64,000 bases of DNA. It comes from an uncultured Lysobacteraceae bacterium (lineage in GTDB: Bacteria; Pseudomonadota; Gammaproteobacteria; Xanthomonadales; Xanthomonadaceae). The position numbers were made by a program, and so were the translations under genes. The notes beneath the pieces are model-generated. The model ran no database searches and had not been told where the DNA came from. It saw only the letters and a list, made by a program, of their open reading frames with translations. The stretch covers positions 1 through 64,000 of the forward strand of contig CADECF010000002.1 of assembly GCA_902825775.1 (NCBI GenBank). The letters run 5' to 3'. Below are positions 56,632 to 63,204 of this stretch, one piece after another (positions within the stretch are counted from its first letter, which is position 1; the number at the start of each line of letters is the position of its first letter).

Positions 56632-56834
56632 CGCCGTTTCCCCTACGAAGCAGTGTCGAGAACAACGCCGACACCGGCGCGAGACGGCCATTGGGCAGGC
56701 CAGGTTTCATGGGGCGTAAGGACGATACCCCCGTAAAAGTCCAGGTGCTGAGTGAGCATTGTGTCGGCAAGCAAGAAAAAAGGCCGCGATCGCTCGCGGC
56801 CCTTGCTCTGTCTCGCTTTCGCGTGTTTGGCGAA

Positions 56835-56884
56835 TGGTGGCCGGGGAGGGAATCGAACCCCCGACACGGGGATTTTCAATCCCC
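56835..56884 (-). tRNA. 3' fragment of tRNA-Phe (island attachment scar, attL)
   Basis: Reading leftward, the 50 bases comprise the anticodon stem-loop GGGGATTGAAAATCCCC (anticodon GAA), variable loop GTGTC, T arm with GGTTCGATTCC, the acceptor 3' strand CCCGGCC, discriminator A and CCA. The D arm and the 5' acceptor strand (GGCCGGG expected) are missing. The break lies beside an integrase gene. This is the pattern left when an element integrates into the 3' part of a tRNA gene and restores an intact gene at its far end. Confidence 0.88.
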
Positions 56885-57019
56885 TAGAAACTGGTCTCAC
56901 GGACACCCACGACGTTTCTCGAATTGAAGTAAATGATTGAAAATAATGAATTAAAAGTTCCATAGTGTTTCATTGTGTTTCGTGGCATCCTGAGCTAAAT
57001 AGGGACCAAGCAGGGACCA

Positions 57020-58381
57020 ATGGGCATTACAGTGAAAGGTCTAGCCGCGCTGAAACAAGGCGCGTGGCTGACCGAACCTGGTGATCGAGGCGCAGGTGCT
57101 TTGCGGGCTAAGGGTAGTGCTGGTGGCGCTCGGTTCTATTTCCGTTATCGAGACTCGGCGGGCAGGTATGACGATTTGCCGGTTGGGGTCTATGACGCAA
57201 CCGGACGCGGCGGACTGACCCTGGCACAGGCTAAGGAGACGGCCGGCAGGCTGAGCCTGCGCTATCTGGGAGGTGATAGAGATCTCAGGTTAGCCCTCGA
57301 GACGGAGAGAAGGGAGGTTGCGTCTACGCGGGCAGCAAGAGCTCGTCAGGCGCTGGCGGCCGCGGAACGTCAAGCCGCTACCTTCGCAGGCCTTCTGACG
57401 GCCTATGTCGATCATCTGCGGTTGGGAAGCAAGGCCAGCTGGCGGCAAGTTCGGGGTGCAATCGATCGTCATATCACGCCGAGAAAGACGCTGGCATGCA
57501 AACCAGCCGACGAAATCGTTGTGGACGATGTCATGCCCGTATTCCACGAACTGGTACGGTCTGGCAAGCTGCGCGAAGCCGAGAAGTTGCGGGCATACCT
57601 ACGAGCTGCATACGGAGCCGCTAGAAAGGCAAGGACAGACGCGACCATGCATGCCTTCGCCGGGTTTCGAATCTATACCAACCCTTTGGCCGATCTCGAA
57701 GTGAGCCGCCCCAAACAGGCTGCCGATAAGGCGGCTACGGCCGCCCGGGAACGGAAGTGGGCTCTCAGTGAAAGACAGCTGGCGCTGTACTGGAAGCGTC
57801 TGGCAGGGGACAGAACTTCACGGGGCGCTCTCCTTAGATTCCATTTGCTGACCGGTGGTCAGCGCGCCGAGCAACTGGCTCGACTAACTGCCGCCGACTA
57901 CGACAGCGACCAGAAGGCCATAACCATTCACGATACGAAGGGACGGCGGAAGCAGGCTCATGAACATGTGGTTCCCCTATTGCCGGAGGCCGTAAGGGAT
58001 TTGGAATTGATGCGCGGCGAGGCCGGTCCTTACCTGTTCACCCTGAACAACGGAGCCGCACCTGCCAGTTACGACAAGCTCTGGAAGTCCATGATGGGGA
58101 TCGCGCGGTCGATGCTTGAGGCTGGTGAGGTCGACCGGCTTTTCACCCCGGGAACTATCCGAAAGACGGTTGAAACCCGACTTGCCGCCAAAGGTGTACC
58201 AGACGAAGTGTTGGCCAGGCTGCTGTCGCATGGCTTAGGTGGCATACAGGCGCGCAGCTACAACGCTCATCGATACGATGAGGAAAAGCGTATTGCGCTA
58301 CGCAAGCTACGGGCGCTTTGTGAGCCAGCCGGGAAGGCGGGAAATGTCGCCGCCATGCGTCGACGCAATGACCGAATCTAG
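57020..58381 (+). CDS. Tyrosine recombinase/integrase of the genomic island
   Basis: This 453-residue integrase has the N-terminal DUF4102-like arm-binding part (FYFRYRDSAGRYDDLPVGVY), a SAM-like core-binding domain (about 120-215) and the C-terminal catalytic domain. Catalytic residues are visible as Arg in LLTGGQRAEQLARLTAADYD, the His-x-x-Arg-type block with TPGTIRKTVETRLAAKGV, LLSHG and the Tyr in YNAHRYDEEKR. It starts 135 bases from the tRNA-Phe fragment, as expected for P4-like islands. Its stop overlaps the stop of the convergent J-domain gene by 4 bases. Confidence 0.94.
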   Translation: MGITVKGLAALKQGAWLTEPGDRGAGALRAKGSAGGARFYFRYRDSAGRYDDLPVGVYDATGRGGLTLAQAKETAGRLSLRYLGGDRDLRLALETERREVASTRAARARQALAAAERQAATFAGLLTAYVDHLRLGSKASWRQVRGAIDRHITPRKTLACKPADEIVVDDVMPVFHELVRSGKLREAEKLRAYLRAAYGAARKARTDATMHAFAGFRIYTNPLADLEVSRPKQAADKAATAARERKWALSERQLALYWKRLAGDRTSRGALLRFHLLTGGQRAEQLARLTAADYDSDQKAITIHDTKGRRKQAHEHVVPLLPEAVRDLELMRGEAGPYLFTLNNGAAPASYDKLWKSMMGIARSMLEAGEVDRLFTPGTIRKTVETRLAAKGVPDEVLARLLSHGLGGIQARSYNAHRYDEEKRIALRKLRALCEPAGKAGNVAAMRRRNDRI

Positions 58382-59220
58382 GGCTCTTTGTGGCCGCTGG
58401 CAGGTCGACGAAGTAACAAGTAGAGCAGGATCACGGCGCCGAGGACGAAGCCGACCAGGGCTCCAACTATCGAATAATTGGCCAGCCACGTCGACCCAGC
58501 GATCAATCCTATCGGCAGCGCCAAGATGGCGGAACCTGCAAGATAGTCAGACAGGTCGTTCTGCTTGGGCAGCTTAACCCTAGGCCAATAGATCAAGCCC
58601 AGGCAAGCTAGAGCGCACAGGTAAAGTGAGGACGTGGTAGTCCGATTATCGCCAAACAGCATCAGATAGCAGGATACGAAGGACGCTATTAGCAGATCAC
58701 GCTTCGGTGTTTCATACGATCTGCGCTGCAAACGATTTACCAGCGATATGATGGCTACAACTACTGCGCCCATCATAATGACGCCTAACGTTCTGCCAGC
58801 GTAGTTGGTCAGAAGCAACGTGGTTCCAATATGGCCAGCCCTTTCTGTGGGAACGCCGTATACCTCCAGAATCACAAAGTAAATGGCGGCTACGCAGCCT
58901 GAGAAGAGAAGCCAGGAGATTTCTCTCGTACGTCGAGCATGTGCGTTCTGGGCTTCACCGTACCATCCTGGTTTGTTGCTCGCCTGGGCTATTTGTTCGG
59001 CCCCATTTTTAAGTTCACTATCGTATTGCGCCCGCCTACGAGAATCCGAGAGCACCGCGTAAGCGGTATTGATCCTACTCATGATCCGTTCTGCTTCAGA
59101 TCGATTGGCCTGATTTCGATCAGGATGCCATCGCTGAGACAAGGCCCTATAGGCGGCTCTGATCACTTCGTCGCTTGCGTCTCGGGAAACCTGCAAACTG
59201 TCATAGTGCGACCCTTCCAT
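58378..59220 (-). CDS. J-domain membrane protein
   Basis: This 280-residue protein starts MEGSHYDSLQVSRDASDEVI and holds a J domain (1-70) with the His-Pro-Asp signature in SQRWHPDRNQANRSEAERIM and the end helix RINTAYAVLSDSRRRAQYD. J domains stimulate Hsp70. From residue 100 on there are about five membrane helices, so the J domain should face the cytoplasm. The start ATG 59220 has GGGGAAG upstream. It is divergent from the controller gene; the C-box lies 25 bases upstream, so both genes may respond to the C protein. Its role in the island is unknown; regulation or sensing for the nuclease is a guess. Confidence 0.82.
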   Translation of the reverse strand: MEGSHYDSLQVSRDASDEVIRAAYRALSQRWHPDRNQANRSEAERIMSRINTAYAVLSDSRRRAQYDSELKNGAEQIAQASNKPGWYGEAQNAHARRTREISWLLFSGCVAAIYFVILEVYGVPTERAGHIGTTLLLTNYAGRTLGVIMMGAVVVAIISLVNRLQRRSYETPKRDLLIASFVSCYLMLFGDNRTTTSSLYLCALACLGLIYWPRVKLPKQNDLSDYLAGSAILALPIGLIAGSTWLANYSIVGALVGFVLGAVILLYLLLRRPASGHKEP

Positions 59221-59244
59221 ACGCTTCCCCGGCAAATCGTATGT

Positions 59245-59273
59245 GACTTATAGTCCGTGGTCTAAAATACCAC
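59245..59273 (+). promoter_or_regulatory. C-box for the controller protein
   Basis: GACTTATAGTC (59245-59255) is a perfect GACTnnnAGTC palindrome, the core of C-protein operators in restriction-modification systems. After the typical CGTG linker comes a weaker, second half-site (GTCTAAAATAC, 59260-59270, inside GTGGT...ACCAC). The strong-left, weak-right order matches the autoregulatory arrangement of known C operators. The controller gene starts 20 bases to the right. Confidence 0.8.
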
Positions 59274-59292
59274 ATCGCGACACCGTCGCCAT

Positions 59293-59535
59293 GTGGATAT
59301 CGCTAGCTACGTAGGGGCGGCAGTACGCTCGATTAGGAACGAGGTCGGCATCTCCCAGGAGGAGTTGGCGGATCTTGCAGACCTCGATCGCACGTACGTC
59401 AGCGGTATTGAGCGCGGACGTAGAAATCCCTCTGTTCGATCCTTGCAGCGAGTTTCAGACGCCTTGGGCGTCAGTCTGGACGTGGTCTTTGTAAGGGCGA
59501 AGGAGCTTGCTAAGCGTTCCCGCGGGGTGGCGTGA
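59293..59535 (+). CDS. XRE-family controller protein of restriction-modification type (C protein)
   Basis: An 80-residue helix-turn-helix protein with GTG start: IRNEVGISQEELADLADLDR, TYVSGIERGRRNPSVRSLQR, VSDALGVSLDVVF. The block DRTYVSGIERGRRNPS is the recognition helix region typical of C proteins of restriction-modification systems. These first activate their own gene and then limit the linked nuclease, so that a new host is not killed. The C-box lies just upstream. No methyltransferase is present; the gene under control is probably the nuclease-STAND gene 247 bases downstream, or the divergent J-domain gene. Confidence 0.88.
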   Translation: MDIASYVGAAVRSIRNEVGISQEELADLADLDRTYVSGIERGRRNPSVRSLQRVSDALGVSLDVVFVRAKELAKRSRGVA

Positions 59536-59782
59536 TCTAGGCTCCGAAGAGCTGTTCTGCTTGGAACTGAGCTGGATGGCTGGTATTGCGCCGCCGGCCT
59601 TTTAGAAATGCCTGGCAACGTCGGGACTAACGGGGCCGTCCGCTGCGCCTTTAGGCCGCGCACATCTGCGCTGATAATTCCATACGATTTTACGGGTCGC
59701 AGTCAGCTGTGCTTTCTGCGCGTGGGCAATATCGCCGGCAAGTCAATACTGTTATTTGCCGGAGATCATTTAGGAGGCCAGC

Positions 59783-62047
59783 ATGTTCGAATTCCAATAC
59801 ATGGGATGGCATGGGTTTCAACGGCTTTGTATTACGATCTGCCGAGAGGTGTTTGGGCAGACAGTAGAGTCATTTCTCGACAGCAACGACGCTGGAATGG
59901 ATGGAGCATTCACAGGTAACTGGTCGCAAGCGGTGGATGCGACATACAGCGGCCGGTTCGTCTTTCAGTGCAAGTTTTCTGCCCGACCGGGGCATCGGAT
60001 CACAATATCTGAGCTCGAGCCAGACGTCATCAAGGTTCAGGCATTGGCTCAGGCAGGTTTGTGCGATGTTTATATATTGATGACCAACGCGGGAATGTCT
60101 GGTCGCACCAGAATCGCTCTTGAGAAGCGCCTCAGAGCAGTCGACGTCAGTAATTCGCTAGTCCTGCAAAGATCCTGGATAGAGGAGCAGATCAGGACGC
60201 GTAGACGCTTGAGGATGCTAGTTCCTCAGATGTATGGCCTTGGCGACTTAACTCAGATACTTGATGCTCGTGCATATGATCAGGCTCGAGCCGTACTGGA
60301 TTCGATGCGCGAAGAATTACGTAAGGTCGTGGTGACGAACTCATACCATCTGGCTGCAGATGCCCTTGACAAGCATCGGTTTGTTCTTCTTATAGGTGAG
60401 CCTGCGTCCGGAAAAACCACCATTGCTTCGATGCTGGCAATGGCGTCAGCCGATCAGTGGGGTGCTTCGGTTATCAAGCTTCACGACCCCGCTCACATTG
60501 TTGATCACTGGAACCCTCAAGAGCCATCACAATTTTTCTGGATTGATGATTCATTCGGTGTAACCCAGTATGAGAGTGAATTAGCGAAAGGTTGGAATCG
60601 GGTGCTTCCGCAAGTTCTAGCGGCGCTGAAAGGCGGCGCTAGAATCGTCATGACGTCTCGGGACTACATATATAACCGTGCAAGAAGTGACCTAAAGCAA
60701 GACGCATTCCCATTGTTGGATGAGTCGAAGGTGGTAATCGACGTTCGCGATATTTCTGAAGACGAAAAACGTCAGATTCTATACAACCATATGAAGCTTG
60801 GCAGGCAGCCAGCTGAATTTAAAACTAAAATAAAGGGGCTGCTGGAGGGTGTCGCTAACCATCCGCGCTTCATACCAGAAGTCGCAAGAAGACTGGCTGA
60901 TCCTATGTTCACTAAGGAGCTTGATCTCTATCAATACGCGCTTGCGGAATTTGTTGAGCGTAGGGAGCAGCTCCTTGTGGATATCTGCAGCCGTCTAGAT
61001 GATGCTTGTAAGGCAGTGTTATCCCTAATCTATATGAGAAATGGTCGGCTTGAGAGTCCTATCCAATTGACCGATATTGAGGAAACGGCTCTGAAGCGAA
61101 TGAATAGTGACCTAGGACGTGTCACGCAAGCACTTCAATCGCTCAAGGACAGTTTTGTGGTTTATGTCGTTGTGGAGCAGATTGCCTGTTGGACATACAA
61201 ACACCCGACTATTCGGGACGCGTTTTCGGAGATATTGCGACGCAATCCAGAGCTCCTAAATGTATTCGTAGCCGGAACTGAGGTTGAACGCCTAGCTCAA
61301 CAAGTCACCTGTGGTGATGTTGGTATAGAGCGCGCGGTCGTGCTGCCAGCCAATCTTTTTCCGCAGATGCTCGATCGGTTGAGTACCTACCAGGCTAGCC
61401 CTTCTTACAAGACAACATGGCTTTCTCGTTGGGGTGCGAAACGGACGTTGTATTCTTTCTTGGCAACGAGGTGTAGTAAGCCATTTCTCGAGTTATATCT
61501 TGCAAAGTTTCCTGACATCATCTCATCCGTTCAAGATCCCGGGTTATATCTGGCATGGTCGCCAGAAGTAGATCTGGGCTGCCGGCTGTTTGAGCTAGGT
61601 CTTCTCCCAGAAGGAGCTAGGAGCAAGTTTTCCGCGAAGGTCTGCGGATACGCGCTGCAGGGCGCGGATGCGCTAGTGCTGCAGGACGGTCGCTTGCGGG
61701 CTTTGGTTACGGCTTCGGAAATGGAGGCGTTACGTAGCGCCCTGCTCAGTGAATTGCTTCCAAATTTAAGTACCGCACGGTTGCGTAGGGAGAATGAGTA
61801 CGACGAAACTGACGACTCGCATCAACACATGGCGCCGTTTCGAGACGCCGCAGAAGCACTTAGGGCTGAGTTCCCTGATGATGGTAATGTTCACGAGATA
61901 ACAGCCAGAGAACTGGCTCTATGTGAACAATGGGAATTGGATCACGCGCAGGGCGATGATTCGCTTAGTCCGCGGGCGCTCACCATCGGTGGGCAGGATC
62001 CGCGGTACATCGGTCGACGCGATGTATTCGAAGACGTTGACGTATGA
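59783..62047 (+). CDS. PD-(D/E)XK nuclease fused to STAND-like NTPase (putative antiphage defence protein)
   Basis: This 754-residue protein has an N-terminal restriction-endonuclease-like domain (1-150). Asp40 lies in the stretch DAGMDGAFTG and Gln62-x-Lys64 in FVFQCKFS, a D...QxK active site as in Mrr-type nucleases. A P-loop NTPase follows: Walker A GEPASGKTT (205-213), Walker B FFWIDD (to 256), a sensor-like VMTSRDYIYNRARS (289-302) and VRDISEDEKRQILYNH. That arrangement fits the nSTAND3 type of signal-transducing NTPases. Residues 400-754 are helical with no recognised repeats and may sense a phage product. AGGAGG precedes the ATG. Codon use is more AT-rich than the core. In other STAND defence proteins, sensing leads to oligomerisation and activation of the nuclease; that is inferred here. 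Confidence 0.85.
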   Translation: MFEFQYMGWHGFQRLCITICREVFGQTVESFLDSNDAGMDGAFTGNWSQAVDATYSGRFVFQCKFSARPGHRITISELEPDVIKVQALAQAGLCDVYILMTNAGMSGRTRIALEKRLRAVDVSNSLVLQRSWIEEQIRTRRRLRMLVPQMYGLGDLTQILDARAYDQARAVLDSMREELRKVVVTNSYHLAADALDKHRFVLLIGEPASGKTTIASMLAMASADQWGASVIKLHDPAHIVDHWNPQEPSQFFWIDDSFGVTQYESELAKGWNRVLPQVLAALKGGARIVMTSRDYIYNRARSDLKQDAFPLLDESKVVIDVRDISEDEKRQILYNHMKLGRQPAEFKTKIKGLLEGVANHPRFIPEVARRLADPMFTKELDLYQYALAEFVERREQLLVDICSRLDDACKAVLSLIYMRNGRLESPIQLTDIEETALKRMNSDLGRVTQALQSLKDSFVVYVVVEQIACWTYKHPTIRDAFSEILRRNPELLNVFVAGTEVERLAQQVTCGDVGIERAVVLPANLFPQMLDRLSTYQASPSYKTTWLSRWGAKRTLYSFLATRCSKPFLELYLAKFPDIISSVQDPGLYLAWSPEVDLGCRLFELGLLPEGARSKFSAKVCGYALQGADALVLQDGRLRALVTASEMEALRSALLSELLPNLSTARLRRENEYDETDDSHQHMAPFRDAAEALRAEFPDDGNVHEITARELALCEQWELDHAQGDDSLSPRALTIGGQDPRYIGRRDVFEDVDV

Positions 62048-62208: not shown

Positions 62209-62679
62209 CTAGTGGTGCCTATAGGTTCGATTTTCGAAGCGGGTGACTTCGATTTTCGAACTGGCGCGTTGTTTTTTAGGCCGTTCGTATCGGGACTTCG
62301 GCACCGCCCAGTCGCCGGGTGCGAGGGTGGTCGCGCCGCAATCAAGCTTTCCGCTGCAGTGGTCTATGGGGTGCCACGTCAAGGCATACAGGCTTGGGGA
62401 GCCCAACCCACCTTGCCGCGTCAAACGCAGCAAACCGTAATGGCAAAGCTCTCGTAGCGCGCTGGTCAACGCTTCCGAAGCCGGTTTCGACTTTAATGTC
62501 GCCGGGGCTAGGTCGCCGTTATTATCGCCCCGATACAGCCTGGCCAGATCCAGTAACAGCTTGATCGCTGTGCCGCTGCATTGTTGCCAATTCGCGGAGT
62601 CCTGTATCGCATGAGGCAGCGCCGTGAAGGTGCCTGAGATTTTCCGCCCTTTTTGTCGCTGTCGGTTAAGAGGCTTCAT
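62209..62679 (-). CDS. Island protein of unknown function, possible winged-helix replication or regulatory protein
   Basis: This 156-residue protein starts MKPLNRQRQKGRKISGTFTA with GGAGG-type ribosome site upstream. It continues LPHAIQDSANWQQCSGTAIK, LLLDLARLYRGDNNGDLAPA and LRELCHYGLLRLTRQGGLGS, a pattern resembling winged-helix parts of small phage or ICE replication proteins. The C-terminus is basic. Such a gene next to an AlpA-type regulator is a frequent pair in integrated elements of gammaproteobacteria. Function is not established. Confidence 0.65.
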   Translation of the reverse strand: MKPLNRQRQKGRKISGTFTALPHAIQDSANWQQCSGTAIKLLLDLARLYRGDNNGDLAPATLKSKPASEALTSALRELCHYGLLRLTRQGGLGSPSLYALTWHPIDHCSGKLDCGATTLAPGDWAVPKSRYERPKKQRASSKIEVTRFENRTYRHH

Positions 62680-62862
62680 GAGGGAGCCTCCGGTAACGCC
62701 GACCAAGGAGCTTGCTCGCTTTGCAAGGCGAGGGCATATGTGCTCGGTACCCTGTTGCGAATCCACGTTTCCTGACGGTAGGATCGCATTGCTTGGCAAC
62801 GAGCAGAAAAATTGTGTTTTCGAAAGCCGGCCCGCCAGCCGGCTTTCGTTTTCTGTTGGTTT

Positions 62863-63204
62863 TCATTTTTTGCCCCCGATACTGATATTTCTCCTATTCC
62901 GACGACGTTTCAGTGTCCGAACTCTTTGAGTATTTGGGGGCGGTCGCGGCACGATCGAATGCTTTGTTTCGATTGCGGCATCCGAGGTGGCGTCACGCGC
63001 ATTAATTCGCGCTTGAATCCACGCGTCTATCTCACGCGAATCCCATGCGATAGCGCGCTCGCTCAGCTTGGCAGGTCGAGGAAATTTGCCGGTCGCTATC
63101 AGCCGATAGATGCTTGAGCGGGATAGCCCAACACGGCGCCTGACGCGCTTCAGCGTTTCCAAGGTCAACTCACCCAGCAAGAGGGCGGGGGCTTCTTCTT
63201 TCAT
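62863..63204 (-). CDS. AlpA-family phage/ICE transcriptional regulator
   Basis: This 113-residue protein holds an AlpA/MerR-like helix-turn-helix: VRRRVGLSRSSIYRLIATGK, FPRPAKLSERAIAWDSREID, AWIQARIN. AlpA proteins often activate excision of P4-like islands. A long basic tail (RTLKRRRNRRNISIGGKK) follows. GGAG lies 7 bases before ATG 63204. Its place in the same island as the tyrosine integrase supports a role in excision control. Confidence 0.9.
   Translation of the reverse strand: MKEEAPALLLGELTLETLKRVRRRVGLSRSSIYRLIATGKFPRPAKLSERAIAWDSREIDAWIQARINARDATSDAAIETKHSIVPRPPPNTQRVRTLKRRRNRRNISIGGKK

Follow-up and report, generated by a model that had tools for sequence, protein, structure and literature searches.

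A solo C-type regulator with an Esp1396I-like operator beside a candidate nuclease–nSTAND3 gene in a tRNA-Phe integrative element

Introduction

Controller (C) proteins act as timers in restriction-modification (R-M) systems, where they accompany restriction endonuclease (R) and methyltransferase (M) genes. Mutual exclusion between C-controlled systems has also been published, and reviews describe how a C protein that is present beforehand stops R-M systems belonging to its group from establishing (PMC12707154, PMC3874152). For C.Esp1396I, the left operator (OL) and right operator (OR) are reported to cooperate, with OR weak by itself (PMC3758141), and residues R35, T36 and R46 are described as binding bases, with Y37 and S52 binding the backbone (PMC4041747). 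No natural solo C gene was named in the open-access literature that was searched. The present analysis concerns a candidate for such a gene in 64,000 nucleotides of DNA from an uncultured Lysobacteraceae bacterium (contig CADECF010000002.1, positions 1 to 64,000, assembly GCA_902825775.1), hereafter the window. Here, a C-type regulator with its own C-box precedes a gene that joins a nuclease-like part to an nSTAND3 nucleoside triphosphatase (NTPase).

A preliminary description of the window took the two genes to form one system. The best explanation, held at a probability of roughly 55%, is instead that two independent cargo units adjoin in an integrative element at tRNA-Phe: a self-regulating solo C gene, the role of which is likely C incompatibility, and an autonomous Avs-like nuclease effector. 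The features concerned are listed below, with the C-gene and 754-residue gene coordinates of the preliminary description found to be correct.

59245 to 59255, plus strand: C-box, left operator, GACTTATAGTC, 48 bp ahead of the C start codon (motif match)
59260 to 59270, plus strand: right operator, degraded; right half-site TAC here, GTC in 12 of 15 loci (comparison of loci)
59281 to 59286, plus strand: inferred −10 element; 13 of the 15 loci keep xAxxxT (comparison of loci)
59293 to 59535, plus strand: solo C-type regulator, 80 amino acids (aa), GTG start (Pfam, PADLOC, alignment, structure-profile and tree comparisons)
59783 to 62047, plus strand: nuclease-like part (Mrr type, weak Pfam match), nSTAND3 NTPase and helical C-terminal part, 754 aa

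The C protein and its operator

The 80-aa product is a small, single-domain HTH_3 protein that fits control-protein models, matching Pfam HTH_3 (3e-18) and PADLOC Control_protein (5e-19). A profile built from nine C relatives placed C.Esp1396I, C.BclI and C.AhdI among its top solved structures. Residues R33, T34, Y35, R44 and S50 of the window protein correspond to R35, T36, Y37, R46 and S52 of C.Esp1396I, and these five DNA-contacting positions do not vary in nine aligned solo C proteins.

A C-box operator lies directly upstream of the C gene. GACTTATAGTC is the sole match in the window at one mismatch or fewer, against a chance expectation of 0.15, and positions 59241–59259 match the left operator of plasmid pEsp1396 at 19 of 19 bp. 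The 18-mer GTGACTTATAGTCCGTGG occurs a single time in the genome (3.76 Mb); one further site lies within three mismatches and carries all three, so that no second operator, from which C might act in trans, exists in the rest of the genome at two mismatches or fewer. From the −10 element inferred at 59281–59286, the transcript would start about at the C start codon and would thus be leaderless. No Rfam element was found in 56–64 kb. The claim of a C-type regulator with a genuine C-box is thereby borne out.

The possibility was also considered that the C cassette is a transposon-like unit bounded by inverted ends (arms 59228–59243 and 59681–59696). In the window, these arms scored better than all 40 shuffles; in the 14 other C loci, however, the number of shuffles that did equally well ranged from 4 to all 40, and the unit was rejected as chance.

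A solo C lineage

No cognate R and M genes adjoin the C gene. The 10.7 kb around it that the window holds contain no open reading frame (ORF) of at least 150 aa with methyltransferase motifs, in agreement with the preliminary description, which had seen no methyltransferase. Of the two methyltransferase families searched genome-wide, PF00145 is absent and PF01555 is confined to contig C1 (348–350 kb).

Relatives were sought with the C protein or its alignment at set cut-offs in four overlapping sets of genomes, and were found for the order (11 of 398), the class (3 of 369), the family (7 of 395) and a sister family (10 of 233); the window's own genome is counted wherever present. All 20 other genome stretches with a C gene were fetched for comparison, and 11 viral C loci came from a separate search. 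Fifteen loci make up the solo set, 14 from the window's order and one from a viral contig (the window, L124–L132, L170, L174–L176 and viral L143). Loci that were too distant, truncated, at a contig end or part of a true R-M system were left out (L133, L134, L171, L172, L173, L177, L178 and 10 of the 11 viral loci). L132, which has a premature stop, was counted for operators and excluded from the tree and from ratios of nonsynonymous to synonymous substitution (dN/dS).

With start codons set by alignment to the window, the box begins 48 bp ahead of the start in all 15 loci. The sequence GACT(T/C)ATAGTC is exact in 13 of them, as many as keep xAxxxT at −12 to −7, and mean information reaches 1.87 bits per base in OL, compared with 0.37 just upstream. 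In most pairs, the shared DNA runs from between −49 and −69 to between +137 and +320, that is, the operator plus the C gene, about 300 bp. L126 and L130, for example, have only −69 to +319 in common (dN 0.03, dS 0.40). Exceptions are the pair L128/L175, an extra stretch in L129/L130 and element genes farther off in several pairs. This pattern suggests that the regulator moves together with its control site, as a short independent unit.

Among the 91 pairs of intact genes, the 23 with dS below 2 gave dN/dS values of 0.06–0.37, from which the C protein in the solo clade appears to be under purifying selection. The 14 intact solo C proteins all lie to the same side of one branch in a 43-row tree (support 74/78, and 72% of 200 bootstrap trees). 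These results bear on the proposal that the orphan C gene is a decayed R-M remnant not yet lost. C proteins belong with R-M systems, and broken copies do exist (L132, with its premature stop, and the truncated L134 and L173); set against this are the low dN/dS within the clade, the fixed operator spacing, the branch that sets the solo loci apart in the tree and the failure to find a methyltransferase next to most of them, which together make decay improbable.

Genomic context of the nuclease relatives

Open reading frames of at least 40 aa from 99 nuclease-family loci, the window among them and covering the best 80 of 219 relatives on genome contigs, were compared with the window C protein. 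None of the other 98 loci has a C-like gene within 1.3 kb, 6 of them having less than 1.3 kb of upstream sequence. Besides that of the window, C-like ORFs (E < 0.01) lie at 1.3 kb in L055 and at 2.9 kb in viral L102–L104, and L013 has none anywhere. The relatives of the C gene occur in differing surroundings. By the refuting condition that the preliminary description itself had set, the two genes are thus not associated across homologous loci, and the earlier view of them as one system is not supported. Because relatives suggest that the regulator and its site move as a short unit of their own, the pairing in the window is probably chance.

A nuclease relative is present in 8 of 398 genomes of the window's order, its own included. 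Of 89 nuclease loci re-examined, 86 offer 700 bp or more of upstream sequence, and in 69 of these 86 a co-directional ORF of at least 100 aa ends no more than 450 bp upstream. Pfam matches of these 69 are to AAA_21 (24), SMC_N (23), AAA_15 (15), HTH_3 (3) and IrrE-type peptidase (3). The frequent upstream ATPase (AAA_21 in 24 of 69; L008–L101) hints at a two-gene defence module. In three Streptomyces loci (L087, L089 and L098), a 381-aa gene, apparently an XRE plus IrrE-peptidase regulator, lies 47 bp upstream of the nuclease–nSTAND3 gene; judged by sequence starts, these appear to be the HTH_3/IrrE cases (3 of 69). They look like a regulator pairing within the nuclease family, but of a different kind. 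In another genome (G327, L009/L015), the nuclease–nSTAND3 relative is broken into two open pieces.

Neighbours of the solo C loci and the question of read-through

In the window, the C and nuclease genes point in the same direction and are 247 bp apart, with a single weak terminator-like site (59540–59553) between them in a scan that performed near chance level. A 103-aa ORF in this gap (59608–59919) was set aside since it overlaps the nuclease gene; a GC-position filter was unreliable for it, having also missed the nuclease gene itself.

This arrangement would allow C to drive the nuclease–STAND gene by read-through from the C promoter, delaying and then limiting its expression and so shielding a new host while the element becomes established. 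Three more solo loci likewise have a co-directional ORF about 204–264 bp downstream of C, encoding a HATPase (GHKL) protein (L129), a DUF6387 protein (L131) and, less surely real, a 135-aa product of no convincing family (L127). A C-box regulator of Ruegeria pomeroyi, described below, stands next to nuclease-type genes with no methyltransferase listed. The C and nuclease pairing is nevertheless absent from the 98 other nuclease loci, and 11 of the 15 C loci are without a family-supported co-directional gene within 300 bp, there being ORFs in 10, most of them not scanned. Furthermore, the gap is long beside those of C and R pairs, which overlap or nearly so, and the site of repression, OR, is degraded. 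Read-through control is regarded as rather unlikely, if the foremost of the alternatives.

Several of these observations, with others, weigh against two independent units and should be set out together. Four of the 15 C loci, the window included, have the downstream ORFs described above, three with Pfam support, so control of cargo is possible. Of the other 11 solo loci, 10 have co-directional ORFs of 60–384 aa within 300 bp, the exception being L176; the four that were scanned (one in L124, two in L125 and one in L130) gave no Pfam match. For this reason, the absence of a target gene beside solo C is not proven, even if most solo C genes are without a recognisable target, and the confidence placed in two independent units is slightly lower on this account. 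No pair that includes the window C had a usable dS, the support for the solo clade is moderate, and the window OR has lost its GTC half-site. Finally, among ORFs of at least 150 aa with methyltransferase motifs, sought up to 6 kb on each side (less at contig ends), three candidates emerged, in L127, L131 and L143. The first is an RsmD-like (Cons_hypoth95) protein and the second has no Pfam match; that of viral L143 is an N6_N4 methyltransferase 4.9 kb from C and counts against the two-unit reading.

The nuclease–nSTAND3 protein

The 754-aa protein matches Pfam nSTAND3 at 2e-42, with Walker A and B motifs intact, and PADLOC candidate PDC-S73 at 5.6e-30 over residues 2–495. Its match to Mrr_cat is weak (0.015, below the curated cut-off). 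Across 46 aligned sequences, window included, D36, D40, Q62, K64, K211, D255 and D256 are invariant; they include D...QxK residues, a motif of Mrr-like nucleases, in the putative nuclease part. The neighbour is of nuclease–STAND type, as first described.

A structure model built from the 46 sequences had a mean predicted local distance difference test score (pLDDT) of 84.4 and a predicted template modelling score (pTM) of 0.75. Its best Protein Data Bank (PDB) match was Avs4 (E 3.8e-9), followed by SAMD9 (2.4e-6), with NLRC4 fourth (2.8e-4). Since the TM-scores of the fold matches are low (0.20–0.28), the comparison supports a STAND-type core and not membership of a matched family. By sequence, no PDB chain matched the protein at E ≤ 1. 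A conserved motif near R-S-x-F-D-D-V-D occurs at the extreme C terminus of the family, window included.

The integrative element and the divergent gene

Further genes and sites in the window belong to, or lie within, an integrative element.

56834 to 56885, minus strand: 52-bp attachment (att) copy, 3′ part of tRNA-Phe
57020 to 58381, plus strand: tyrosine integrase of the element (Pfam Phage_integrase 1.7e-9)
58378 to 59220, minus strand: divergent DnaJ-domain gene with four hydrophobic stretches; a TTG start is possible at 59235 (Pfam DnaJ 1.8e-20; hydropathy count)
62209 to 62799, minus strand: small element protein with homologs near solo C in L128, L131, L170 and L176 (no Pfam match)
62863 to 63204, minus strand: AlpA-type regulator/excisionase of the element (Pfam Phage_AlpA 3.8e-16; PHROG excisionase)

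An identical 52-bp copy lies beyond the window at contig positions 116333–116384, overlapping an intact tRNA-Phe (116334–116409, minus strand). From this direct repeat, the element may be 59.5 kb long, or there may be two nested elements. Judged by eye, genes inside the possible 59.5-kb element resemble a cytochrome oxidase cluster. AlpA or a homolog of the 62209–62799 protein is found near C in 6 of the 14 other solo loci (L127, L128, L131, L170, L175 and L176); L128 also carries an integrase, and 52 bp of L127 match the tRNA-Phe att of the window at 96% identity.

As the operator lies between divergent genes, C might control the DnaJ-type membrane gene, alone or together with itself. The C-box is 24 bp from the ATG of this gene, divergent ORFs with hydrophobic stretches also start near the box in L127, L128, L170 and L175, and the second C-box in Ruegeria faces a divergent GIY-YIG nuclease gene. 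In other loci, however, the divergent ORFs differ or none is convincing, and DNA homology ends at the operator in most pairs. Such control is considered improbable, to about the same degree as decay.

C-box loci in viruses and plasmids

R-M systems with the same 18–19 bp operator occur on plasmids. Where R and M are annotated on a plasmid, R overlaps or abuts C, in contrast with the 247-bp gap in the window. R-M arrangements were also seen elsewhere: in viral L145, an HNH_2 ORF overlaps C and a C5 methyltransferase is convergent; in viral L149, the ORF that abuts C has no Pfam match and an N6_N4 methyltransferase is convergent; and in the genome locus L171, C is accompanied by an R ORF of Bse634I type and by a C5 methyltransferase that is divergent. 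The exact 18-mer operator was found in six viral contigs, with a C homolog directly after it in all six, and looser 14-mers or the 18-mer were directly followed by a C homolog in 7 of 111 loci. Among 13 C-like plasmid loci inspected in gene tables that are themselves incomplete, 3 list R-M genes and 10 list none within 3 kb. A full C-box is present in one of these ten, that of Ruegeria, and the remaining nine may be ordinary XRE regulators.

The Ruegeria pomeroyi locus (NC_006569; L308, 11378–18924) lies outside the solo C clade. Its C-box-bearing regulator is accompanied by a second box that faces a divergent GIY-YIG nuclease gene; AlpA, integrase, DUF4365 and AAA genes are found in the same region, and no methyltransferase is listed in 26 kb. 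On two Photobacterium plasmids (L304, 3501–3994; L307, 3001–3494), a C-like gene is convergent with a 66-aa ORF that bears its own C-box and is possibly a C-controlled gene outside R-M. For one of these plasmids, a methyltransferase of dcm type and a restriction endonuclease are listed at a distance of a few kb; the other lists no methyltransferase.

Proposed roles of the two units

Under the reading of two adjoining units, the first would be the solo C cassette of about 300 bp, comprising an Esp1396I-type operator and the C gene. By analogy with C.Esp1396I, C would bind the left box and activate its own weak promoter. When an R-M system with the same operator enters, the resident C protein would switch on the incoming R gene before M protects the DNA, and the system would fail to establish. 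C incompatibility of this kind is predicted as the most likely role, because no R or M gene was found for C to time and no second operator was found in the genome. It is also the most economical, since real R-M plasmids carry identical operators, the genome holds no second close one and C has nothing evident to control. Solo C may instead act on changing neighbours. A more specific version, advanced only tentatively, is that the stand-alone 300-bp cassette is a booby trap that excludes R-M systems of the same C group through premature nuclease, and occasionally runs cargo such as the nuclease–STAND or GIY-YIG gene.

For the second unit, domains and fold suggest that the nSTAND3 NTPase would sense an invader and assemble, whereupon the Mrr-like nuclease would cut DNA. 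Its gene could have a promoter of its own or be transcribed by leakage, and not necessarily under C. If a C lineage that lacks R and M keeps its operator, the spacing and the residues that read DNA, selection would appear to favour exclusion, or the control of other cargo, in its own right. Such a lineage would also caution against taking a C gene that adjoins a defence gene for part of one system.

Comparison with known systems

Avs4 (AVAST type 4), the top PDB fold match of the window model, has an Mrr-type nuclease at its N terminus. It is a long protein with a C-terminal sensor for phage portal, its solved chain numbering 1534 residues compared with 754 here; the TM-score is only 0.20, and no Avs-named model appears among the PADLOC matches of the window protein at E ≤ 0.1. 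The window protein is therefore not placed in Avs4. It resembles the PDC-S73/nSTAND3 proteins by the Pfam and PADLOC matches given above, and PDC-S73 is itself a candidate entry with a putative anti-phage role. No C gene was seen near its relatives, many of which follow an ATPase gene, whereas the window has no such ATPase gene.

For the C unit, the closest described system is that of pEsp1396. There, C overlaps an R gene of the BstXI family and the M gene is convergent, neither of which accompanies the window C; the box lies 75 bp ahead of the start codon, compared with 48 bp in the window; and OR is intact, whereas that of the window is degraded. The likeness resides in the C protein itself, which is 45.3% identical to C.Esp1396I over residues 3–75, in the five DNA-contacting residues and in the left operator, identical at all 19 bp.

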